A program made the position numbers and the translations under genes. A DNA stretch of 64,000 nucleotides, from contig NC_134013.1 in NCBI RefSeq assembly GCF_040712315.1, positions 82,962,001 to 83,026,000 of the forward strand, read 5' to 3'. How positions within the stretch are numbered: position 1 is the stretch's first letter; each line of letters starts with the position of its first letter. Source of the DNA: Castanea sativa. Lineage: Eukaryota; Streptophyta; Magnoliopsida; Fagales; Fagaceae. Below the pieces are notes generated by a model, which did not search any database, was not told the DNA's origin, and saw nothing but the letters and a program-made list of their open reading frames with translations. This document shows, piece after piece, positions 8,081 to 57,712 of the stretch.

Positions 8081-8108
8081 TTTAGTCTTTAGGGAAGTTT
8101 AGGACATC

Positions 8109-10133
8109 ATGGTAGGATCAGAACCACAACGCAGCGCGGAGTCCGTGGGCTCCCAGCGTGAGGATCACTCCTTGCATCCTGATCATGGAGAGAACCGAGA
8201 AGGAAGTATACATACTACACACACCATCAGAAGTGCAAGTCATTCGCAAGGAGGAAGCAGAGTTCCTTACGAAAGAAATGCCAGGGCCATGCAGAAGGAG
8301 ATTGACGGCCTAAGGAGGAGATTGCGTCACGAGAGGAGAAGGAGAACTCCTCCGGTCTCTGACCCCTCTTCGGAGGGATCCGAGGATGAAAATTACAGGC
8401 GGAGATCCAGAACTCCCCCAGGTGAACATGTCTCTTCCGAGGAAGACAATCTGCATGGAGGGCGTGGCAGAGACTACCCCCCTAGGGGCTTAGGAAATGA
8501 CGCAATGGGAAGGGCGTTACACCAAATCTCCAGGTCACCCTTCGCGCGCAGATTGGAAGAAGGGAGGTTACCTCGGCGCTTCACACAACCGGCCTTCACT
8601 CTTTACAATGGTCGGACGGATCCTGTGGAGCGCGTAAGCCATTTCAGCCAGAGAATGGCAGTGCATTCCAGGAACGAAACTTTGTTATGCAAGATTTTTC
8701 CTTCTAGCCTAGGGCCCGTAGCCATGAGATGGTTTGACGGCTTAAGGGCAGACTCCATTGATTCTTTTAAAGAGCTTACTAGGGCATTTGGTTCTCGCTT
8801 CATCACGTGCAGTAGAGTTCCTCGTCCATTGGATTCTTTATTATCCATGGCCATGAGGGAAGGGGAAACCCTGAAAACATATTCGGACCGGTATTGGGAA
8901 ATGTTCAACGAAATTGACGGAGACTTTGACGATGTAGCAATAAGGACCTTCAAGGTCGGCCTACCAACGGAGCATGACTTGAGGAAATCCTTAACGAAGA
9001 AACCTGTCAGAAGCGTACGTCGACTGATGGATCGCATCGACGAGTATAAAAGGGTTGAGGAAGATCAGCTGCAGGGAAAGGGCAAGGCGAAGGTTATCCC
9101 ACAAGAAAGGAGGGATTTCAGGTCGGACCGATACAACAGCAATAGGCCTGCGCGGGATTTTTCCAGGCAAGCTGGTCACATACCCCCACAAGTGGTCAAC
9201 ACCGTCTTCAGGGAGCCGGTGCAGCAGCTGTTGGAGAGAATAAGGCATGAGCCTTTTTTCAAATGGCCAAATAAGATGGCGGGGGACCCTTTGAGACGCA
9301 ACCAAAATCTCCACTGCCATTATCACCGGGAGAGAGGTCATACCACCGAGGACTGTCGCACTTTGTGGAATCATCTGGAACAGCTGGTTAAAGAGGGAAA
9401 GCTGAAGCAGTTTCTGTACCAACCCAACGGGCGGGGAAACCAATCAGGAGTGGCAAACCATGACGGTCCTTCATCCAGACCACCTCTAGGTACTATCAAT
9501 GTCATTTTTGCAGCACCTGGTAGGACTGGCTCAGCTCCTTTCAGGGTAATGTCAGTTGCTCGAACATTGGCCGAGGAGTCACGGGATCAGCCAAAGAGGA
9601 TTAAGGCAAGTGTCCTGCCAGTCCTAAGTTTCTCTGAAGAGGACAAGGTGGGGACCATCCAGCCTCATGATGATGCCTTAGTGGTAACCCTCAGGATAGG
9701 GAACTATGATGTAAAGAGGGTAATGGTTGATCAAGGTAGTGGTGCAGATATCATGTACCCTGACCTATTTAGAGGCTTGAAGTTAAAAGTTGAAGATCTT
9801 ATGCCATATGACTCACCCTTGATAAGTTTCGAAGGGAGAGCTGTCGTTCCGAAGGGACAGATTAGACTGCCTGTGCAATCAGGTCCGGAGGTGGTAGACG
9901 TAGATTTCATCGTGGTCGATGCTTATTCTCCCTATACGGCTATTATGGCGAGACCTTGGCTGCATGCGTTAGGGGTTGTTTCCTTAACCTTGCATGTCAA
10001 AATCAAGTTTCATTCTGGAGACCAGGTGGTAGAGTTACTTGGGAGTCAGTCTGTGGCTCGACAGTGTGTCACAGCGGCAATTCTGCGTCGACCAGAACCA
10101 GATTCCCCGGCCTCGGCTAACGGTGAAGCATAG
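8109..10133 (+). CDS. gag-pro: Gag-protease polyprotein of the retrotransposon
   Basis: The frame is 674 codons starting at an ATG 48 bases after the LTR. The first 150 residues are basic and charged. Residues about 160-300 are the retrotransposon gag core, with the FTLYNGRTDP and MRWFDGL stretches. Residues 403-416 form a nucleic-acid-binding knuckle of unusual form, C-x2-H-x4-H-x4-C, where the usual second Cys is His. Residues about 530-650 are the aspartic protease, with DQG at 541-543 in place of the usual D-T/S-G, a variant I recall from related plant elements. The frame ends at TAG (10131-10133), and pol continues in the same frame. Gag would form the cytoplasmic particle and protease would cut the polyprotein. 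Confidence 0.9.
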   Translation: MVGSEPQRSAESVGSQREDHSLHPDHGENREGSIHTTHTIRSASHSQGGSRVPYERNARAMQKEIDGLRRRLRHERRRRTPPVSDPSSEGSEDENYRRRSRTPPGEHVSSEEDNLHGGRGRDYPPRGLGNDAMGRALHQISRSPFARRLEEGRLPRRFTQPAFTLYNGRTDPVERVSHFSQRMAVHSRNETLLCKIFPSSLGPVAMRWFDGLRADSIDSFKELTRAFGSRFITCSRVPRPLDSLLSMAMREGETLKTYSDRYWEMFNEIDGDFDDVAIRTFKVGLPTEHDLRKSLTKKPVRSVRRLMDRIDEYKRVEEDQLQGKGKAKVIPQERRDFRSDRYNSNRPARDFSRQAGHIPPQVVNTVFREPVQQLLERIRHEPFFKWPNKMAGDPLRRNQNLHCHYHRERGHTTEDCRTLWNHLEQLVKEGKLKQFLYQPNGRGNQSGVANHDGPSSRPPLGTINVIFAAPGRTGSAPFRVMSVARTLAEESRDQPKRIKASVLPVLSFSEEDKVGTIQPHDDALVVTLRIGNYDVKRVMVDQGSGADIMYPDLFRGLKLKVEDLMPYDSPLISFEGRAVVPKGQIRLPVQSGPEVVDVDFIVVDAYSPYTAIMARPWLHALGVVSLTLHVKIKFHSGDQVVELLGSQSVARQCVTAAILRRPEPDSPASANGEA

Positions 10134-10139
10134 CAATCA
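10131..10139 (+). promoter_or_regulatory. Possible leaky stop between gag-pro and pol
   Basis: The gag-pro stop is followed in frame by CAA TCA, giving TAG-CAA-TCA. This matches the UAG-CAR-YYA consensus known to promote ribosomal readthrough in plant RNA viruses. The pol frame continues without shift for over 2.3 kb. A simple CAG-to-TAG mutation in a single-ORF family would look the same, so the programmed role is inferred. Confidence 0.45.
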
Positions 10140-12479
10140 AAGTCTCTTCCCATAGCCGAGGTAGATGAAGCAGTATGTGAAGAATTGGAGAAAATTATCA
10201 TAGACAATGATCCTGAGAAGTTCTTCCAGGTTGGAGTTCAATTGCCGCAGGAAGAGAAGACAGAGCTGATTTTATTTTTAAAGAAAAATATGGATGTATT
10301 TGCTTGGAACGCGTATGAGGCCCCTGGGGTTGATCCGAACTTCATTTGTCATCATTTAAAGGTCAATCCAATTGCAGTGCCGAGGAGGCAACCACCTCGG
10401 AGGTCCTCAAAAGAACATTCCGAAGCCGTAAAAGAGGAGGTGCTCAAACTCAAAGAGGCAGGGGCTATCAAAGAAGTGTTTTATCCTGAATGGTTAGCCC
10501 ATACGGTGGTGGTGAAAAAGAAGAATGGGAAGTGGAGAGTTTGTGTAGACTTCACAGATTTAAACAAAGCTTGCCCAAAAGACTCATTCCCGATGCCTCG
10601 GATTGATCAATTGGTTGACGCTACTGTTGGACATCCTCGGATGAGTTTTCTTGATGCATTCCAAGGTTATCACCAGATACCTTTGGCCGTTGAGGACCAG
10701 GAGAAGACTGCATTCGTCACTCCTACGGGAAATTATCATTATAAGGTAATGCCTTTTGGTTTGAAAAACGCAGGGGCTACCTACCAAAGGATGATGACAA
10801 GGATGTTTGAGGCACAGCTAGGAAAAACTATTGAGGTATACGTGGACGACATGGTGGTAAAGAGTAAAGAAGTTTCTGCACATCTGGAAGATCTGAGCAA
10901 CACTTTTCAGAAGCTAAGAGAGTATAAATTGCGGCTCAATGCCTCTAAATACTCTTTCGGTGTGGGATCGGGCAAGTTTCTAGGATATATGGTGACTCAC
11001 CGGGGAATTGAAGTGAATCCTGCTCAGGTAAAGGCAATAAACAGCTTACACCCACCTCGGAATCCTAAAGAAGTGCAAAGGCTAACAGGTATGATTGCTG
11101 CTCTCAACCGATTTATATCTCGGTCCGCGGACAGATGCAGGCCTTTCTTTCAATTATTAAATAAATGGAAGGGTTTTGAATGGACCGAGGAGTGCGCAGT
11201 AGCTTTCCAACAGCTAAAAGAATATCTCTCGCGACCACCAGTTATGTCTCGACCAGAGGTTGATGAGATTCTGTTTGCATATATTGCGGTGGCTAACCAT
11301 GCTGTTAGTTTGGTTCTTATCCGAGATGACAATAACATCCAGAGACCGGTTTATTATGTAAGCAAATCTCTGCATGAGGCCGAGCTGAGTTATTTGCCAC
11401 TAGAAAAAGCTATCTTGGCAGTGGTACATGCTACACGAAGACTTCCCCATTACTTCCAGTCTCATACGGTTGTTGTTCTTACACAACTCCCTCTTAAATC
11501 AATTCTGCGAAGTGCAGATTATATGGGAAGAATTGCCAAATGGGGAACTGTCCTAGGAGCTTTCGATATCAAGTATATGCCTCGCACCTCTATAAAGGGA
11601 CAGGTCATCGCGGACCTTGTGGCGGAATTTGCTGAGCCTTCGTTAGAAGACTATCAAGAAGGCATGGGTAAAAAATCAGTAGGCATGATTTCGTGTGAAG
11701 GGCCTCCATTATGGAAAGTCCATGTTGATGGAGCAGCAAATCAGAGGGGATCGGGTATCGGACTAGTTTTAATATCCCCAGAGGGAATTACTTTTGAAAA
11801 ATCTTTGAGATTGGGATTCTCGGCCACCAACAACGAAGCAGAGTATGAAGCCGTCCTCGCAGGGATGAACATGGTTCATAAAATGGGAGGAAAGACGATG
11901 CAGATGTTCTCGGATTCACTATTGGTGGTAGGCCAAGTAGAAGGGAAGCTAGAAGCAAGGGATTCCAGAATGCGAGAATACCTAACCCAGGTCAGGTATA
12001 TGCAATCTAAATTTGAGTCTTTTCTACTATTGCATGTATCCAGATGTGGCAATACCCATGCCGACTCATTAGCCACGCTCGCGACGTCCTCGGCACAATG
12101 TCTACCACGAGTTATCCTCGTTGAAGATCTGTTAAAACCCACTGGGACGGATGGTAACTCCACTCAAATTCTTCAAATTAGGACAGGGCCTAGTTGGATG
12201 GATCAAATAGTAACATTTCTCAGAAATGACATCCTACCTGGAGAAAAAGCTGAAGCAGATAAGGTTCGTAGAAAAGCCACTCGTTTCTGGTTATCCGAGG
12301 ACCAAAAATTGTACAAACGTTCCTTTTCGGGACCATATTTGCTATGCATCCACCCCGAGGCAACGGAGCTACTTTTGGAAGAGTTACACGAAGGGATTTG
12401 CGGAAGTCACACAGGAGGAAGGTCTTTAGCTCACCGGGCCCTTACTCAGGGCTATTGGTGGCCAAATATGCAGAAATAA
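10134..12479 (+). CDS. pol: Pol: RT, degenerate RNase H, archaeal-type RNase H
   Basis: The frame is open from the codon after the gag-pro TAG to TAA at 12477-12479 and has no convincing start of its own. Counting from the TTG at 10185, the reverse transcriptase spans residues about 95-290, with the YVDD catalytic box at 219-222. A gypsy-type RNase H (about 350-480) has lost expected acidic residues (AYIAVA, LTQLP). A second RNase H (about 505-630) retains its acidic set in HVDGAAN, NEAEYEA, FSDSLL and HADSLA. The C-terminal end begins the integrase zinc region (HEGICGSH). It would reverse-transcribe the element RNA in the particle. The TAA cuts off integrase. Confidence 0.9.
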   Translation, partial: QSKSLPIAEVDEAVCEELEKIIIDNDPEKFFQVGVQLPQEEKTELILFLKKNMDVFAWNAYEAPGVDPNFICHHLKVNPIAVPRRQPPRRSSKEHSEAVKEEVLKLKEAGAIKEVFYPEWLAHTVVVKKKNGKWRVCVDFTDLNKACPKDSFPMPRIDQLVDATVGHPRMSFLDAFQGYHQIPLAVEDQEKTAFVTPTGNYHYKVMPFGLKNAGATYQRMMTRMFEAQLGKTIEVYVDDMVVKSKEVSAHLEDLSNTFQKLREYKLRLNASKYSFGVGSGKFLGYMVTHRGIEVNPAQVKAINSLHPPRNPKEVQRLTGMIAALNRFISRSADRCRPFFQLLNKWKGFEWTEECAVAFQQLKEYLSRPPVMSRPEVDEILFAYIAVANHAVSLVLIRDDNNIQRPVYYVSKSLHEAELSYLPLEKAILAVVHATRRLPHYFQSHTVVVLTQLPLKSILRSADYMGRIAKWGTVLGAFDIKYMPRTSIKGQVIADLVAEFAEPSLEDYQEGMGKKSVGMISCEGPPLWKVHVDGAANQRGSGIGLVLISPEGITFEKSLRLGFSATNNEAEYEAVLAGMNMVHKMGGKTMQMFSDSLLVVGQVEGKLEARDSRMREYLTQVRYMQSKFESFLLLHVSRCGNTHADSLATLATSSAQCLPRVILVEDLLKPTGTDGNSTQILQIRTGPSWMDQIVTFLRNDILPGEKAEADKVRRKATRFWLSEDQKLYKRSFSGPYLLCIHPEATELLLEELHEGICGSHTGGRSLAHRALTQGYWWPNMQK

Positions 12480-13433
12480 GCGCAAGATTATGCAAAGAAA
12501 TGTGACCAATGTCAAAGGTTCGCTCCAAATATACATCAACCAGGTGGAGTCCTGAATCCCCTATCTAGCCCATGGCCTTTTGCCCAATGGGGCTTGGACA
12601 TTGTTGGACCCTTCCCCAAAGCAACGGGAAACAGACGGTGGCTTCTCGTGGGAACAGATTACTTCACCAAATGGGTTGAAGCTGAGCCATTATCAAACAT
12701 CAGAGACACGAAAGCAAAAAAGTTTGTATGGAAGAATATCGTTACCAGGTTCGGCATCCCTCATACTCTCATTTCAGATAACGGTTTACAATTTGATAGC
12801 AAAGCCTTTCAGAAATACTGCTGTGATCTGGGCATTACGAATAGATATTCCACTCCGGCTTATCCCCAAGGAAATGGGCAAGCCAAGGCTGTCAACAAAG
12901 TAATAGTGAGTGGACTCAAAAAGAGGTTGGGTGACGCCAAGGGAAGGTGGGTGGAAGAACTGCCACATGTCTTGTGGACATATAGAACTACACCACGAAG
13001 ATCCACAGGTGAAACACCCTTCGCCATGACTTATGGAGCCGAGGCAGTAATCCCCTTAGAAACTGGGTTCCCAACCCTGAAGAAAAGCTCCTTTATTTCA
13101 GATAGCAATGATGATCTATTAATGAGAAACTTAGACTTAGTTGAGGAACGGCGAGAAAGCGCCATGGTTCAACTAGCTTATTATCAACATAAGCTCAAGC
13201 AGGGATATGATTCTCATGTGAAACTTAGACCTCTTGGACCAGGTGACTTAGTATTAAGGAAAGTTTTGGGCACGATGAAGAATCCTGCGTGGGGAAAATT
13301 GGGGCCCAACTGGGAAGGACCTTACCGTATTACTTCGGTCGCAGGAATAGGGGCCTACAATCTGGAAGATTTGGACGAAAACGTTGTACAACGTCCCTGG
13401 AATGTAAATAATCTACGAAGGTACTATTACTAA
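12480..13433 (+). pseudogene. Integrase part of pol, disabled
   Basis: This is the same frame as pol but lies after the in-frame TAA. It begins with the C-x2-C (CDQC) of the zinc-binding domain. The catalytic core has Asp at 12597-12599 and Asp at 12777-12779 (SDNG). The codon 36 residues later (12885-12887), where DD35E integrases carry Glu, is AAG for Lys. The C-terminal GPY/F region (GPNWEGPYRI) is intact, and there is no chromodomain before the stop at 13433. The nonsense codon and the lost catalytic Glu are two independent reasons this copy should not integrate itself. A partner element could still supply integrase. Confidence 0.88.
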
Positions 13434-15233: not shown

Positions 15234-17802
15234 CTAAGCCAAGGACTCAACGGCAATTCCTTTGCCTTTTGGATCATCTATCAAGGTTATTGGGTTATCT
15301 TGATCACCCAACTCATCCTTTGAAGATTCCCGATGATCACTTGAAGGCTGTACGTCTACGAGTGCCTTTTCTTGTGCAGGGTCAAGTTGTTCAGGGGCAC
15401 CTTCAGGAAGAGTTGAGTCTTCAGCCAAATCACCCCCCTTATCCTCGGATGATCCCTGGGCAGCTTCTTGTGCAGCGTCAGGAATGGAAGAAGCACGGAT
15501 TGCAGGAGGATAGTAGACACTCTCTGCTTTCCAAAGAGTGGAAGAGGCATCAACCCCAGCTTGGGAAAGTGCCTCATTCCACACTTGGAGGCAGTAGTGC
15601 CTACATACCTCGGGAACCTGAGCCTTGAAGGTTTCAGTGACCTCCTTCACGCCTATATCATAACCGTCTTGTTCGGCTTGGTCCCTCGAGTTCTCGGCCT
15701 CTTCTTTTGCTTTCTCAGCCCTTTTCTTCTCCTCAATGGCTTCTTCTTTGCCCCTGTTGGCTTCCTCTTTGGCCTTCTCAGACTCGTTCAGATCTTTCTT
15801 AAGATCCTCTACGAGCCTTCGTGCTACTAAAAGGTTATCCTCAGCTTGGCGAAGCATTAGGCACTGATCCTCGGCCTGTTTAGTCGTCGTTTTCAGATCA
15901 GCCTCTAAACCTGCCTTAGCACTCTCAACCTTAGCCAATTTTGCTGTGACCTCCTGCAGCTTCTTCTTATGAAGGTCCGAGATCTTTTGAGCAGTTTCAC
16001 GCCTGGACTCCTCGGCCCTCAGAGACTTGTAGGAATTGATGGCGATCTCTTCTGCCCTGTGGGCAGATTGAACGGCCTACGAACAAAAACATATAAAACT
16101 TAGACATATAGATATATATAGGAAATAAAAATAAAAGTCAAGGTTTTAGAGAAAACTCACCATTGCAAGCTCCTTCTTCAAAGTCATGAAGACGGTGTGG
16201 TCCCTTTTCTTTCTCAGCTCAATCATATCCTCGGGGAGTAACAGTGCCTGCTCCAAAGCATCTGCGACGCATGCCGCTGTCCCTTCATCGGAATTTCTAA
16301 TGGACGCATCCACGGTAATGACCTCGTCGTCCATAGAAAGGTCAGGAAGCCATACAGGGGCACGTACGGCCGCCTGTTGGTCGGTTCTTCTTTCCGACCT
16401 AGTCTGTATGGTGCGGGCCTGCTTTGCACCCTTTTCCACCTCGGGCTCCTTGGAAACAGAACCCTTTCCTACCTCCACAATTTCCTTCCCTTTCGGCTGA
16501 TCCCTTTTTCTTTTGAGATCAGCTATGTTGGTGCGTTGAGTTTGGGAGGATGGAGGAGGAGGAGGAAGCCTAGCTTCAGGGCGTTTGTCAGCACCCTTTT
16601 CTTGAGTCCGTGGGCGCACCTCTTTGGGAGGTTCTTGGACTCTAGGGTCCTTATCAGCGCCCTCAAGGACATCTTTCAGGCTGGGCTTAATCTTTCGTTG
16701 AATGCCCATAACGTCAAGTTCTTCAGTAATAACCTTTGAGATTTGGGTAGAAGTGCCGAGGATGGAAGTTGAATCTTCAGGAGAGTAGAGTTGATTAAAA
16801 ACCTCAAACTCGTCCTCGGAATCTGGTACCTCAACTTCTTCTTCTTCTTCTTCCTTTACAGTAAGGTAGGAAGATGCAGCTTCACCCGAGGTTAAATTTG
16901 TGGAGAGAGGAACTGTGGGAATCCCAACTGGAACGAATGGTGGCGGTTGGATTGGTTGGGTGACCAAAGTACCTTGAGGAATGGTAGTCCCCCCCGGTAG
17001 CAAAAAACCCTCCACGGCAACGCTAATCCGAGGAAGACGAGGATCGCGGGCTTTAATCACGCACTTCGGCGCCTGAAAGGCTTTAGATATTGGAGTGTAG
17101 CCGAGGATCAGATGAGCCGCACGGAGTTGGCCGTCGGTGTGCACGAAGATCTCGGCTTGTAGGATCCTATCCAACCGCCCGAAATCCACAAGGTTAGGAT
17201 GACGATCCGCTGCGTGTGGATCTGCAAGTTATCCAAGTAAAAATGGGTAAGAGTAAGTAAAAAGACGAAAGATAATAGTATGTAAAAGAAACTTCACCTG
17301 GAGTCCCTTCCCTTGTCGGACAGGGGAGGCCGTCGTGCCAGTTTCCTGATATGATCAGGAAGTCATTTTTTAGGCCCTTATTTGATTCAGGCAGACATTG
17401 AATTAGCCTGACTTCTGGGTGTCTAGACTTTAGGTAATATTCATCTTTTTTGCTTAGGTGATGGAGGTTATAAACCCAGTTCACGTCGTGGTGAGTGAGC
17501 CCTAAGTTCATCTTCTCGTTTAAAGCATCTATGGAACCTAGGATCCTAAAGACATTTGGGGCACATTGGGTGGGAGCCAATCTAAAAGCCCTAAAATAAT
17601 CCCTAGTCACAGTTCCCATGGGGATTTTCATTCCCCCTTCGATGAACGCAATCATCGGGATTACAACTTCCCCCGTTTTTCTTTTTGTATAATACTCTTC
17701 CTCGTTACAGTACCTAATGGATACATCCGAGGGAATTTTGTACTTAACCTTAAACTGCTCTATTTTTTCGTTTGAATCCACCAGGGACGCAAATCTACCC
17801 AT
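15234..17802 (-). CDS. Antisense three-exon gene within the retrotransposon
   Basis: Proposed exons are 17802-17298, 17221-16161 and 16076-15234, with introns of 76 and 84 nt. Boundaries are canonical: CCAG|GTGAAG to TTGCAG|A, and AATG|GTGAGT to CGTAG|G. The joined frame is open for 802 codons from the ATG at 17802. Exon 1 contains FRLAPTQCAPNVFRILGS-type sequence, resembling the plant domain annotated as 'putative gypsy type transposon' (PF04195) from memory. Exon 2 is low-complexity, acidic then basic, with NLS-like KRKR. Exon 3 is a long Glu/Lys/Ala-rich coiled coil followed by a conserved-looking YCLQVWNEALSQAGV segment. Antisense extra ORFs are known in Tat elements, but their function is unknown. 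Confidence 0.75.
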
Positions 17803-18072
17803 TCTTTTTGAAAAAAGGGGGTGTGAAGAAGACTAGCTATGCCGAGGATGAAAGACACAGTGAAAAAGAGAAGATGGGAAAGAAAAGAAACAAAAGAAAC
17901 AAAAAGCTGATAAGGAGGGGAAGAGTATTGAAGAACTTACTTTTAAAAAAGAAGAAAGCACGGTCACCTCGGACAGGGTACTTGATAGACAGAGAGAGAG
18001 TACGGGGAGATGAAAAGTGTGGCAGGTACGTTATGTGGTTTCTGTAGTGTGAATAATTTTGAAGAAAATTAG

Positions 18073-35538: not shown

Positions 35539-36744
35539 CCTTTTTTTTTTGGCAACAAAGAAGGAAATTTGATTATAGTATTTCTAGGATGAACGAGAAT
35601 ATGAGATAGCCCACGAGACTCTATATAATTACGTGACCGAGGTGCATGGTGGCTCTGATTTATATATGGGTGGGTGGGCTGAGGTCTGTGAACTAGCTTC
35701 TATTTGCCTTTTCTTTTCTTATTATTATTATTTTTTTTTTGAGGAACAACTAACTTCTATATGCTGATCTATTATAAATTGGCCCAACTAGGCTAGGCAT
35801 TATTTGTGTGAGACCCAAACCCAGTTTTAACTAGCCATAAATTTAGTGTTACACATAATCAAACCATTTATATAAGGTAAAACTTAGCGACAATTTAGAT
35901 TAAAAAAAGAATAGTCATTTTTACTAGGAAAAGTTTATTCTTCCTAAACCTTATATTTTTAGTGTAGGCAAGATTCAAAATTTAAATGTCAAATCTCTTG
36001 CACAACTACGATTTAATTAGCTAGATCTCCACAACAGCCTTTGTCCTTACAGTAATTTATCCTAAAACCAAAAGAATTATGCAATCCAAAACAGGCTACA
36101 TAAAAAGCGACACACTAGTATAACATGACATGCATTTGAGCTGTCATCAACTTGGCTATTTTTGGACTGGGTGCCACTATCAGTCGGCCATTTGGGACAC
36201 TAGTTTTAAAAGTCTTCTTTCTCCATTTTGGTTACTAGCTAGCCAATGTACATGTTTCTTATATTGGTCATTTTTGTAATGAACATTCAGCATCACAAAC
36301 CTTATCCTAAGTTCATAACATATAGTATGACTTTTGTAGTGCATTGATTCACAGCCAATGCCTTGCCGTGGATGGACTTTGAGACACTGAATCAAGCCAA
36401 GCTTTGGGCCCATCCGTTGAAACTGGGCACAGGTTTCTTGGAGGAGACACTTGGTGATAATATGGTGGACTGTCAAATGTACCACTAGTAGTAGTACGGC
36501 ATGGTGTGTGGCACTCCTTGTAGTTTTGGCAAATATGGGGGTTAATTCATGTTTATTCAATCAAGGTTCTGAGATGCATAAATGTGGGTGGATAAAGTGA
36601 AAAATCTCAATCCTGACTTGCTTCTCTCATTAAAGGCTAGCTATGAAAACCTCACCTTCTTTGTGATTCTATTATCATGCTTCCCATTATATTTAAAAGC
36701 TTTTGATGTGGTTTTCTTTAAGAGAAATTCTTTAATTAACACAA

Positions 36745-39724: not shown

Positions 39725-39764
39725 GCTTTGTGGTGAAGATCAGTGGCAACTGAAGCTGTGAAGA

Positions 39765-39923
39765 ATGGAGAAGGCTGTGGTTGTCACAACTTGGAGAATG
39801 CTTGTGAAGCAAATGGGTTTCTTTGGCTTATGTGAAGGTTGGGCTGATTCTGGAATAAACCCCATTTTCAAAGTCCAATCTTTGCAACTCGCTCTGCTCT
39901 TTCTCTTCTGCTTTGCCTTTTGA
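39765..39923 (+). CDS. Small ORF, 52 codons, unknown
   Basis: It starts at the first ATG of the putative exon (AAGAATGG, acceptable context). The peptide begins MEKAVVVTTWRMLVKQ, contains GFFGLCEGWADSGINP, and ends in a hydrophobic ALLFLFCFAF tail that could insert in a membrane. Composition is less AT-biased than nearby noise. I do not recognise it. It may be a real micropeptide or an incidental frame in a non-coding RNA. Confidence 0.3.
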   Translation: MEKAVVVTTWRMLVKQMGFFGLCEGWADSGINPIFKVQSLQLALLFLFCFAF

Positions 39924-39940
39924 TGATGGTGTTGGTGGTG

Positions 39941-39965
39941 GTGATATTGGCGGGACGGCTCAATC
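39941..39965 (+). promoter_or_regulatory. miR171-complementary site with central bulge
   Basis: The site reads GTGATATTGGC, then GGG, then ACGGCTCAATC. Against the canonical miR171b/c site it matches on both sides of the extra GGG. Against the miR171a site the left half GATATTGGCG and right half CGGCTCAATC match with GGA extra. The bulge falls at the slicing position, which would block cleavage. The miRNA sequences are from memory. Confidence 0.6.
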
Positions 39966-40210
39966 TCTTAATTTTATGATATAATTTTTATTTCTTTTTC
40001 TTTTTTCTTTTCATCATGATGTTGTCCATATTGAAAGTTTATGCAAATGTTCTTTCTAATGACACTAACTTGCCCTTTTGGTTTTGCATTTGTGCCTTAC
40101 TGCTTCTTGAAGAAAACCCCAAAATTCCTTCATGAAGCAAAGAAAGAAAAAGCAGCAGATGATAGATTTTATGCAGTAAATATGGGGCAGACAACTCTGT
40201 TTAGGAGTTG

Positions 40211-41600: not shown

Positions 41601-44600
41601 GGTAAAATCATTTTCAGATGACTAAGTTAAACACTCTTCAAGGTTGAAAATGCTTCATGTCCCTAAACACCATGAAATGTTTTTGAGTAATTTTTTAGAC
41701 CACAACTAATCACCAAAAAATAAGTAGTTTTCCTTGAAAATGTTTTTAATAAAAATAACTGAAGCAAAGCTAGGAGAAAAATGGAAGAATTCCAAAGAAT
41801 ATAAATTGGAAAATTCTGTGCAGTGTGTACATGGTTGTTGGGCATCACCTATGCAATGGATGAGAGGTTTAATACCTTTAAGTTGAAACGTGCGCTTTAA
41901 ATACTTTCTTGGTTGTATGTTTTAATAGATAACATATTAGATTGTAAAATAAACTAGTTATATAGCGGTAGAGAAGACATGATTCGTACCTCACCATTCT
42001 AGCCACTATTTTGGCCTCCTCAAAGTTCACTTCGAGTCTCTTTTAAGATTAAAAGTTTGGTAACCTAGTTTCCAATAATGATAAATATATGAGAATAGGA
42101 ATTAGTACTATAAAGAATGTAAGAAGTCGTAATAGAATAACATTTTTAAGAATAATTATTATTATTCATTTGTTTGATGATAATATGGTAAGATGATGGA
42201 ATATTTTAGTTAAAAATTTTAAAATACTCTATATAATTAGATTTACTTTTTTTTTTTTTGGATTCTCGCTTAGCTGTCTATTGCATAGAAATTTAAAAAT
42301 TATATAATTTATAGCAATGAGGCTATAAGTGATTGAAAAAAAAAAAAAACTATTAAATTGATTGAGCCATTGAAGAAAATATGTTAGAGATCATTTGGTA
42401 AGAAATAGTTATTACTTACTACTCATTTGTAAAGAATAACTATTCCCTATAAAGAAAACACAACTAAACAATATAATAGTTTTTCCAACACCAAATACGT
42501 GAACATAAATAAAGGCTCTCACAGGGTTGGGGTACACGGACAGCCAAGATCTCTAATTGCATTGTAAATTACTTATCTTGATATCTTGTTCCACCGGTTT
42601 TTTTCTTCTGATAAAGTCTTGTTCCGCCAGTTAATTTGTGTAACTTGACGGTTGACACTAATCCAATGTTAATCTACACAGAAATCCACTTCTTTAAATA
42701 GGGAAATTTTTTCCAAGTTTTTGTTTATATGGAAATATGGCATTGTTCAAGAATCATTTACATAGCAAAATTCCCAACTTTTGTCCCCTTGTTCTTGTGT
42801 ATTTCCTCTAATTTGCAAATTTTACATCTCTGTTTAATTCAGTCGTCTAGTCCATCTCAGAACTTAATGACAAGTTTTCACATGTCTTTTTGTGCTACTG
42901 TTGTCAGTAATTTTAGACCTTTCTTTTATGTTAATAAAAGCCATATTTTATTTTCAGTAAATAGACTAACCACCTCCAGAATGATAATATAAACCTAAAA
43001 CGGCAGATATTTGCTTGTCATGCACCAGTCAGAAACAGAAGCCAGTAAAGGTAAAACAAGGTAGCTTGTCTACTTCAAATGTAAATCTAGAAATTGCAAA
43101 ACTTCAGCTACTGATATAAAGTGAGGCTTATACCTAAAAAGAAAAAGGAAATACAGTAAGGCCAAACCAGGAGATAAAAACAAGGGAAAGAGATAAATCA
43201 ATAAATCAATAATTAAAAAAAAAAAAAATCCTAAGGAAACATCTAATATAAATGTCTTTATTTTGTTTGCAAGCTAATAGATGTGATCCTAAAGTGTCAG
43301 TCCTATTTTGCAATAAGAGAGTGAAAACCATGCCTGCTGTGTCCAAGTGTCTGCTTCAAAGTACTAATAAGCGAAAACAAAAATTACATCCACCACCATA
43401 CACTTGCCAGTCATGGATAAGTGAAATTAAATCTTCATTTTGAATATGCAAATTTGCAATCAACAATAATACTGGACAGAACCTCATGACAAGCAGAAGG
43501 ATAAAAAAAAGAGGAAAATTTCAGCATTTTCTTTCAAGAACAAAAAATCAAAAGCACTATTCCTATTACTCAGAAACAATAGGCAAACAAGTATAAAACA
43601 AAATGATACTACACAAACAATAAGAATCACGCTGAATTTAGCCACAAAGCTCAAAGTAAATTAATGTTAAGCAACTTAAGCTTGCAAGAGGTAATTGGCC
43701 TACTGCTTTACAGAAAATACACCATGCTAAAAAAAAAAAACAAAAGAATGAATTAATATTAAAATATAGTTATAGGATAAATTATAAAATAAAAAGAAGG
43801 ATGTAGAGTGTTTTGTAGAAAAAGAGAGTTTTTGAACCGGTAATTTAGTCAAGGATAGAAAACCAGATGTAAATACTCTTACAATTGATTGATTGTAAGA
43901 TTGATTAAATCAACTGTATCTTTCTCCAAGACAAGAGCCAGAAAGAACGCATGGCCACAAACACATGATATGGCTACCAGCTACCAAGACAACAATCATA
44001 ATCTGATGTATATTTCAATTCAGCTCCAAAAATTAACGATCTAATAAGTCCCATGCCGCATATAAAAGGAAACGTTCACTCAAATACATGCTTATACATC
44101 TGCCTTGTCACTTGAATCAGCTAGGACTTCATCTCCGTTAGGGAGAGATGTCTTACATATCATAGTTTGGTTCATGCTTTTTACAGTGTCCAACATCAAT
44201 AATCAATCACAGGAAAAATATTTTAGCACTCCTCAAGGAGCCTAAAATTACATTTAAGTTCCTCATATAAAATTAAAAACAATAAGATTCTGCACTAAGA
44301 TGCAATTGTCAAAGATTGGTGCAAACACTTGAAACATGTGGGAAAATTGGGGGGGGGGGGGGGGGTTTCAAATCTGGTGCCATGCAATAGTGAACTAATA
44401 ACTGAGATTGAAACTTCAAAAATCACTTTTAATCTCAACAGTTGAATCAGAAATTTTTTGATTTTTTCACCTTCCTAACTTACATCTCAAAAACACACGG
44501 TAATTACACCACACAATAATTGCATGAGATCTAAATCTGAGTTGGGGAATGCATGCCCAGTACCTATTCTATAGGGTAGAATTAACCTACCCTATATAAC

Positions 44601-46818: not shown

Positions 46819-48015
46819 TCATTGCTCCACATGCTGCAAGTACCACTTATAGGTATCAACAAGGCCATCCCTAAGCGAAATCTTAGGGGTCCAACCCAAT
46901 GCAGCTAGCTTCGAGCTATCCATGAGCTTCCTAGGAGTCCCATCAGGCTTGGACGTATCCCAAACAAGCTTCCCCTCAAACCCCACCACATCCTTCACCA
47001 GCTCAGCCAACTCCTTGATACTGACCTCCTTCCCACTCCCAACATTCATGTGCCCTAAGCCACTGTAGCTCTCCATCATGAACACCACCGCGTCAGCCAG
47101 GTCATCCACGTGAAGGAACTCCCTCAAGGGACTCCCAGTCCCCCATACCACCACCTCCTTCGCACCCTTCACCTTTGCCTCGTGAAATCTCCTCATCAAT
47201 GCAGGCAAGACATGGGAGTTCTCGGGGTGGAAATTGTCGTTGGGGCCATACAGATTGGTGGGCATACCCGAAATCGCATCCCAATTGTATTGAATACGAT
47301 AGGCTTGGCACATTTTGATGCCAGCAATCTTAGCCACGGCATACCACTCGTTGGTGGGCTCTAATGGGCCAGTTAAGAGCGCATCTTCAGGGATAGGTTG
47401 GGGTGCAAATTTGGGGTAAATGCAAGAGGAGCCGAGGAAAAGGAGCTTGGAGACGCCATGGCGGTAAGAGGAGTCAATGACGTTGGTTTGGATCTGGAGG
47501 TTAATGCTGATGAAGTCGGCCGGGTACGTGTTGTTGGCATGGATGCCACCAACTTTGGCAGCTGCTAGGATGACAAATCGAGGCTTCTCAGTGGCAAAGA
47601 AGGATTCAACATCATTTTGGCGGGTGAGGTCGAGTTCCAAATGGGTGCGAAGGACAAGGTTTGTGAAGCCCAGGTGGCGAAGCTTGTGGACTATGGCAGA
47701 GCCCACAAGCCCGCGGTGGCCTGCTACAAAGATCTTTGCCGATTTGTCAGAGAAAAAGGACAAGGCAGATCCTGCACAAAATTTTGAGGTTATTGTTTTA
47801 TAGACAAAGAAGTGGGGGAGGGAATTAGAGTTAGATTTTTTATGATTTGGGTTTGGGGGATAGGGAGTGTTTGGGTGGAGAGAAAATGTGAGGAAACAAA
47901 TTGTGAGTTTTTTATCTTAGTAAGTTGAAGTTTAGGTTTTTATGAGATATTATTCCAATTCTTCATTTCTTTTCTTATTTTACATTTTCTCAATTATCAA
48001 ATTCACAAACAAACC

Positions 48016-56365: not shown

Positions 56366-57529
56366 TCACAAAACGTAACGACACGTCACCAGCTCCTCTT
56401 CTTCCTCCACCACAAACTCCTTCCAGCAGTGCATGACAGCTTTCGCTTTTGCTTTGATAGGTGTGCGCTCCACTGTGCACTCCTCTGTAGCCTTAGCCTC
56501 AGCCTCAGCCTCAGCTTTATTCTCCGCATAAGTTATGTACACCAGGAAACACCCACCTGGCAATTCCTGCTTCACCACGTTCTCACACGTGTACCCCTCC
56601 ACGTCAGCAGAAACAAACTGGGAACCATTAGAGCACGTGACCGCCACAGAAAACTCGGCCGGGCCAAAACACTTGAGCACCCTCTTGACCAGAGGCTCGA
56701 ACCCAATAGCCTCGGGGTCGAACCCCATGGCCTCGTAGCTTGCGTAGCTGAACCCATCCTCTGGGGTCACGTGCACGGTAGAGTAGCTAGACCCTTCAAT
56801 TCCATTCATTGAGTACCCGCACGGGTCAAACTCGAAGTCACAAATCACGTGAGTTGGAATAATTTCATTAATCCCGGACTCTTTGGTCATTTCACATGCC
56901 CCATTGCTTCCCGATTTTTTGAAAAACACGGACGCGTTGTCGCGGTTCAACTTAGTCATGCACATCTCAAGGGTAATTTGGGTATTTTTATTGTTCTCAA
57001 TGTCTTTACTCGCCGCCGAGTAAATGTGCCAGTTACGGTTCGGAACGTTGGGATCGCCGATTACGTAAGCCTGTGCGTCCATGTGCCCAAAGTACTCGTT
57101 CAAAACAGCGACTTCCTCAGTGAAGTTACGGTGAGGGGCAGGCTGGTAATTTGGGAAAATGAAACTGCCACGAGAGTATTTAACCGAGGACACAGTGAGT
57201 GAGAGTGAGTCAGCGAGTTGGAGAATCGGTGGGATCGACAAGAGAAGTTTAGTGGTCCCGCAGGTTTTGAGGACTATTTTGAATGGGTAGACGAATAGGC
57301 TTGATTCTGACAGAACGTACGAGTCGAACTCGGAGTTTGAGAGGTTGGAAACGATGGTGCACTGAGCTGGCTCGAGAATGGAGTCGAGTTGGGCCCGAGT
57401 CAGGGCTCGGAGACCGAGTCCCTGTGGATCTATGAAAATGGATGGCTCGGAAAATGAGATTTCCAAGCGTTTTTCGAAGCCTTCGAACCCTATTGGTGAA
57501 GGTGGTGGAGGATCGTTGAAAATGCCCAT
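56366..57529 (-). CDS. SAMDC: S-adenosylmethionine decarboxylase proenzyme
   Basis: This is a 387-residue, intron-free main ORF. The enzyme makes decarboxylated SAM, the aminopropyl donor for spermidine and spermine. It is a pyruvoyl enzyme that cleaves itself between Glu75 and Ser76 in YVLSESSLFV, giving a small beta chain and large alpha chain. Cys90 (KTCGTT), NRNWHIY, FDPCGYSMNG and SSYSTVHVTPEDGFSYASYE are active-site or processing signatures; the last includes the PEST-like stretch linked to fast turnover. The start at 57529 has G at -3 and +4. The C-terminal tail carries an unusual Ala-Glu repeat (AEAEAEAKA) encoded by a GCCTCA-type hexamer repeat. Translation is probably controlled by the leader uORFs. 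Confidence 0.96.
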   Translation of the reverse strand: MGIFNDPPPPSPIGFEGFEKRLEISFSEPSIFIDPQGLGLRALTRAQLDSILEPAQCTIVSNLSNSEFDSYVLSESSLFVYPFKIVLKTCGTTKLLLSIPPILQLADSLSLTVSSVKYSRGSFIFPNYQPAPHRNFTEEVAVLNEYFGHMDAQAYVIGDPNVPNRNWHIYSAASKDIENNKNTQITLEMCMTKLNRDNASVFFKKSGSNGACEMTKESGINEIIPTHVICDFEFDPCGYSMNGIEGSSYSTVHVTPEDGFSYASYEAMGFDPEAIGFEPLVKRVLKCFGPAEFSVAVTCSNGSQFVSADVEGYTCENVVKQELPGGCFLVYITYAENKAEAEAEAKATEECTVERTPIKAKAKAVMHCWKEFVVEEEEELVTCRYVL

Positions 57530-57712
57530 TGCTTAAAAAAGAGAAATATTTTGTTTAATGCAAAAGAGTGTGTTTTTTTTTTTTTTTTGGTGGTTTTTTT
57601 TGTTTTCTGGGTTTTGTTTGGCCAAAGAGAATTCAGATTATTGTTCTAACGAAAACGAAAAAACGAAAGGGAAATCCTATTCTACCAAACAAGTCATCTC
57701 TTGTATCGAATA

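Follow-up and report, generated by a model that had tools for sequence, protein, structure and literature searches.

A candidate target-mimic site for miR171 with a three-base bulge in chestnut DNA

The window analysed here, a continuous stretch of 64 kb of Castanea sativa DNA, carries at positions 39941-39965 of its plus strand the sequence GTGATATTGGCGGGACGGCTCAATC, which can be read as GTGATATTGGC-GGG-ACGGCTCAATC. Judged from its sequence, this locus is a strong candidate for an endogenous target mimic (eTM) of miR171 and would be another case of a known class. The original prediction had described two miR171 half-sites split by GGG, and these are indeed found (Table 1). That the site is a single-site eTM of miR171 can be given about an even chance.

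Pairing was evaluated by scoring bulge placements of 0-6 nt against four miR171/170 forms, including a sequence with U at position 12 (hereafter the U12 form). With miR171b/c (UUGAGCCGUGCCAAUAUCACG), positions 1-9 and 10-20 are paired, the bulge falls after position 9 and position 21 is the only mismatch. With miR171a (UGAUUGAGCCGCGCCAAUAUC), positions 2-21 are paired, GGA is bulged after position 11 and position 1 is the only mismatch. The U12 form also pairs through 2-21, with the bulge after position 12 or, alternatively, after position 11 at the cost of one G-U wobble. Outside the bulge, 20 of the 21 bases are thus paired for miR171a as well as for miR171b/c. For each of these three forms, the only mismatch is terminal and there is no wobble; with miR170, a wobble is added.

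Three sequence rules have been given for eTMs in the relevant part of PMC5148581: pairing of positions 2-8, three unpaired bases between positions 9 and 12, and at most three mismatches. All three hold here. The seed (2-8) is perfectly paired for miR171a, miR171b/c, the U12 form and miR170, as had been announced; the 3-nt bulge lies within 9-12, with the U12 form placing it at the edge; and the terminal mismatch is the only one outside the bulge. Thus, the proposed mimic geometry stands, but the arguments that the earlier reading drew from a nearby ORF and from splice borders are weak (see below). The bulge had also been placed at the slicing position. It does adjoin the 10|11 bond, but its exact location depends on the isoform (9|10, 11|12 or 12|13) and is never 10|11. 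The three extra bases in the middle distinguish the site from the uninterrupted, cleavable miR171 site of the GRAS/HAM type.

The centre of the site, GGGA, has a further property. A shift of the bulge by one base, between GGA and GGG, lets the C-type strand (miR171a) and the U-type strand (miR171b/c) both pair without wobble. By our own count, 32 of the 256 possible centres would permit this by luck once the site matches one isoform type, and the sliding bulge is therefore only suggestive.

The predicted duplex energies are -32.0 kcal/mol for miR171a, -31.3 for the U12 form and -32.6 for miR171b/c, which is weaker than an IPS1-style design by 1.4, 0.6 and 0.3 kcal/mol, respectively, and amounts to 0.82-0.84 times the energy of a perfect duplex. 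For a further isoform, UUGAGCCGCGUCAAUAUCUCC, the value is -28.1 kcal/mol, only 0.72 of that of its own perfect duplex. In four local folds, the openness of the site (0.43-0.49) is about equal to that of its surroundings (0.40-0.46). Its seed half is somewhat more open, with a mean unpaired probability of 0.49-0.66.

Table 1. Features of the 64-kb window (positions counted from its first letter)
Feature	Position	Strand	Remarks
Ty3/gypsy-type element	8103-13433	+	long gag and pol-like frames: 676, 781 and 317 aa between stops
Three long frames	15234-17832	-	one with a sub-threshold Transposase_28 match (E 0.0015, 19.2 bits vs 26.2)
Frame	36180-36560	-	sub-threshold Cu2_monooxygen match (E 0.0035, 18 bits vs cut-off 30)
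Putative exon (original prediction)	39725-40210	+	weak borders
52-codon ORF	39765-39923	+	stops 17 nt before the site
18-codon ORF, MMVLVVVILAGRLNLLIL	39923-39979	+	spans the site; its ATG shares one base with the stop of the 52-codon ORF
5' half-site, GTGATATTGGC	39941-39951	+	pairs with the 3' part of miR171
GGG	39952-39954	+	bulged with U-type miR171 (miR171b/c, U12 form)
GGA bulge with miR171a	39953-39955	+	G 39952 is then paired; the register bulging the first G is equivalent
3' half-site, ACGGCTCAATC	39955-39965	+	pairs with the seed side of miR171
Intronless epimerase-family frame	46819-47916	-	PF01370, 218.5 bits
Intronless S-adenosylmethionine decarboxylase (SAMDC)	56366-57532	-	possibly a divergent paralogue

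The mechanism that we infer, from transcription to binding in the plant and an effect on the HAM genes, would be the following. A plus-strand RNA containing the site would bind Argonaute-loaded miR171 thanks to the full seed and to pairing on the 3' side. With three nucleotides bulged out next to the scissile bond, cutting would not occur, and miR171 would be held and perhaps degraded. The HAM/SCL6 GRAS mRNAs would then be released from repression. Owing to the sliding of the bulge by one base in GGGA, C-type and U-type isoforms would both be bound without wobble. It may be imagined, as a rather doubtful extension, that the site is a natural sponge for miR171 in Fagaceae, neutral as to isoform, and that all members of the miR171 family could be held by it; on an ordinary miR171a-type target, in contrast, U-type strands pair with a wobble. 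Several observations speak against the mimic reading. The splice borders are weak and the ORF is ordinary, the bulge lies off 10|11 in every form tested, some isoforms pair less well, the accessibility of the site resembles that of its surroundings, and there is one site only. Moreover, a weakly expressed RNA may fail to titrate a miRNA, a matter of stoichiometry taken up in PMC5599236 (part of the text).

The most serious rival, possible though on the unlikely side, is that the site is inert, having arisen by coincidence or persisting as a relic without selection, between genes or within an intron, and is never present in an abundant RNA. The local context agrees with this. The borders of the exon proposed earlier had been called canonical. 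When scored with approximate matrices, the acceptor before 39725 reaches the 95.2 percentile of the AGs of the window and the donor after 40210 the 96.5 percentile of the GTs. This acceptor is the lowest of the 25 listed for 36.5-42.5 kb, the donor is ninth among 22, and stronger splice-like sites occur within about 2 kb. The location of the site 17 nt past a short ORF was given correctly; this 52-codon ORF has no homologue found and no Pfam match. Its length is ordinary for the window, where ORFs of at least 52 aa occur at 0.73 per kb per strand (93 of 1640 first-ATG ORFs).

The rarity of the pattern argues in the other direction. Both strands of the window were scanned under the eTM rules with 31 conserved miRNA sequences (of which miR170, miR171a and miR171b/c are confirmed in print). 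All 16 placements that pass correspond to the site. The half-site pattern is present once in the window, and 100 shuffled sequences gave no instance. In 28 Mb simulated with a first-order Markov model of the window composition, seven sites pass, two with a score of 2.5 and five with 3.0; none scores 2 or less, as compared with 1.0 for the chestnut site. The two 10-mers of the site, separated by a gap of 0-10, match 11 times in 257 Gb of prokaryote contigs, once with a gap of 3, and once, with a gap of 10, in a viral collection. For a core of 10+10 bases with a gap of 3, a trinucleotide model gives an expectation of 1.5e-8 for the window and of 1.9e-4 for a genome of 0.8 Gb. After multiplication by about 50 for the families and by 4 for the positions of the bulge, factors chosen by the author, these values become about 3e-6 per 64-kb window and about 0.04 per genome. 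Hence, one such site could turn up by luck if windows were scanned in very large numbers. A chance origin is unlikely, but under that condition would not be absurd.

A second rival, improbable in our estimation, is that of a decayed or rearranged miR171-related copy, either a GRAS/HAM fragment with an in-frame GGA codon or a broken MIR171 read antisense; such a copy could itself still act as a mimic. The arms are compatible with a mutated HAM site. Once GGA is removed, 20 of 21 bases are those of a perfect miR171a target, so that the arms alone fit a mutated HAM site and a miRNA-fitted site equally. Removal of GGG leaves 20 of the 21 bases of the miR171b/c target, and lengthening the latter by two bases deduced from miR171a brings the match to 22 of 22. 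Furthermore, translation of the site in the 18-codon ORF gives ILAGRLN, one glycine more than the HAM peptide ILARLN. This frame may point back to a HAM origin, with agreement of the frame alone expected by chance in one case out of three. However, no Pfam family matches the 43-aa stop-free frame that runs through the site (39848-39976) at E up to 10, a search limited by the short query. GRAS coding sequence was not detected in the frame of the site by this Pfam search. A stop codon follows in that frame four codons past the site, and no homology was seen in the flanks.

As concerns a broken MIR171, the absence of a second hairpin arm nearby, already noted in the original prediction, is borne out by Rfam, by folding and by inverted-repeat searches. 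The whole window contains no Rfam family at gathering score, MIR171 included. At E up to 10, neither MIR171 nor any plant microRNA appears in 39.5-40.4 kb; the seven low matches obtained there (E 0.047 to 8.6) are far under gathering scores and are taken as chance. Folding is not unusual on the plus strand at 39800-40100 (z -0.73) or on the minus strand at 39850-40100 (z +1.37). None of the 10 inverted-repeat pairs of 39.0-41.2 kb includes the site, and the closest plus-strand GATTGAGC is at 42360, 2.4 kb away. A star strand matches at 17 of 21 positions. A hairpin with paired miRNA and star arms was found on neither strand, and a MIR171 precursor, or an antisense relic of one, finds no support.

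Finally, the site could act in cis: miR171, binding but not cutting, would repress the host RNA or the small ORFs, at the level of translation or of stability, with sequestration incidental. The 18-codon ORF, which contains the site and shares a base with the stop of its 52-codon neighbour, fits with this. However, neither a relative nor a domain was detected for the 52-aa peptide, and the frame of the site has no Pfam match. Nothing that would merit regulation in cis is thus apparent, and this mechanism is quite unlikely.

Returning to the mimic reading, the candidate can be compared with known decoys, as described in the parts of the sources that deal with them. IPS1 of Arabidopsis is a non-coding RNA with a single miR399 site and a cut-resistant 3-nt bulge (PMC3121747; PMC5599236). 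The chestnut site shares with it the single site and the 3-nt bulge. It differs in being directed at miR171, in having its bulge after position 9, 11 or 12 instead of exactly at 10/11, and in being known from DNA, whereas IPS1 is a phosphate-regulated transcript. MIKKI, derived from a rice retrotransposon, is a natural decoy of miR171, as the site may be. However, MIKKI resists cutting through mismatches at 11 and 14 and its site was made at a transposon splice junction, in contrast to a 3-nt bulge within continuous genomic sequence here (PMC5599236).

In Lilium pumilum, eTM171a/b are likewise called endogenous target mimics of miR171, and their over-expression lowered miR171 by about half and raised LpSCL6 (PMC9171120). 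They are cloned transcripts from a monocot, unlike the present case, and the word 'bulge' does not occur in the searched text of that paper. In poplar, the lncRNA MSTRG.13550.1 was reported as an eTM of a miR171i form, using transient co-expression. There, however, the read-out was CDL1, not HAM, and the site came from ordinary target scoring, the bulge being unmentioned in the passages concerned (PMC9135444).

The engineered miR171_3B decoy is likewise a miR171 site with a 3-nt insertion; unlike the chestnut site, it is synthetic, has its bulge at 10/11 and is expressed from 35S in a maize miR399-mimic backbone (PMC3121747). In Arabidopsis, the engineered 3-nt-insertion decoy depleted miR171 more than a mismatch decoy did, and leaves, roots and flowers were altered; among decoys directed at a different miRNA, miRMON1, those with bulges of 1-4 nt performed best (PMC3121747). 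This type of decoy thus works when expressed with its bulge at 10|11, from which that of the chestnut site is shifted.

Decoys of maize and cotton were, like this one, predicted from sequence among lncRNAs for strands of the miR171 family, but most of those listed in the parts of PMC4608266 and PMC6888562 concerned target the star (5p) strand, as opposed to 3p here. The maize duplexes amount to 0.65-0.72 of the perfect energy, compared with 0.82-0.84 for the three forms here.

Five sequence strings of the site were searched in the open-access literature and none was found. Titles and abstracts surveyed in the same literature contained no miR171 mimic of Fagaceae, which is weak evidence given this scope. 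A chestnut paper reports several lncRNAs and, in the portion consulted, mentions target mimicry in general only (PMC9786281). No bulged mimics were found in grape, according to the pertinent part of PMC6488645, and the corresponding portions of the longan (PMC6219066) and apple (PMC12946679) papers contain nothing bearing on a bulge-type miR171 mimic.

Elsewhere in the window, several other features were recognized. For the gag protein of the Ty3/gypsy-type element (8.1-10.1 kb), 223 protein matches were obtained at E up to 1e-50; of the 120 that were listed, those with names are from Quercus and Castanea. The proteins compared point to Fagaceae as the family of the window. The group of three long frames on the minus strand is probably another transposon. 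The Cu2_monooxygen match concerns an odd family for a plant and is probably due to chance. The epimerase-family frame may encode a GDP-L-fucose synthase. The best three relatives of the SAMDC show 95, 77 and 72% identity, and the first named one after them, from Morella rubra, is also at 72%; it may be a divergent paralogue, because its relatives do not exceed 77% apart from one cluster at 95%.

According to the part of a review that treats them, HAM/SCL6 genes are controlled by miR171, and through them shoot stem cells are kept and developmental programmes are set (PMC8910752). The tested natural mimics of miR171 met in the literature, as far as the portions of the sources consulted extend, are from rice, lily and poplar (PMC5599236; PMC9171120; PMC9135444). 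If the present candidate were genuine, a near-perfectly paired mimic of the bulge type would reveal, for long-lived trees, whether miR171 activity is set by such decoys. The sliding bulge, if it operates as imagined, would in turn show whether one decoy can hold a wider set of isoforms.
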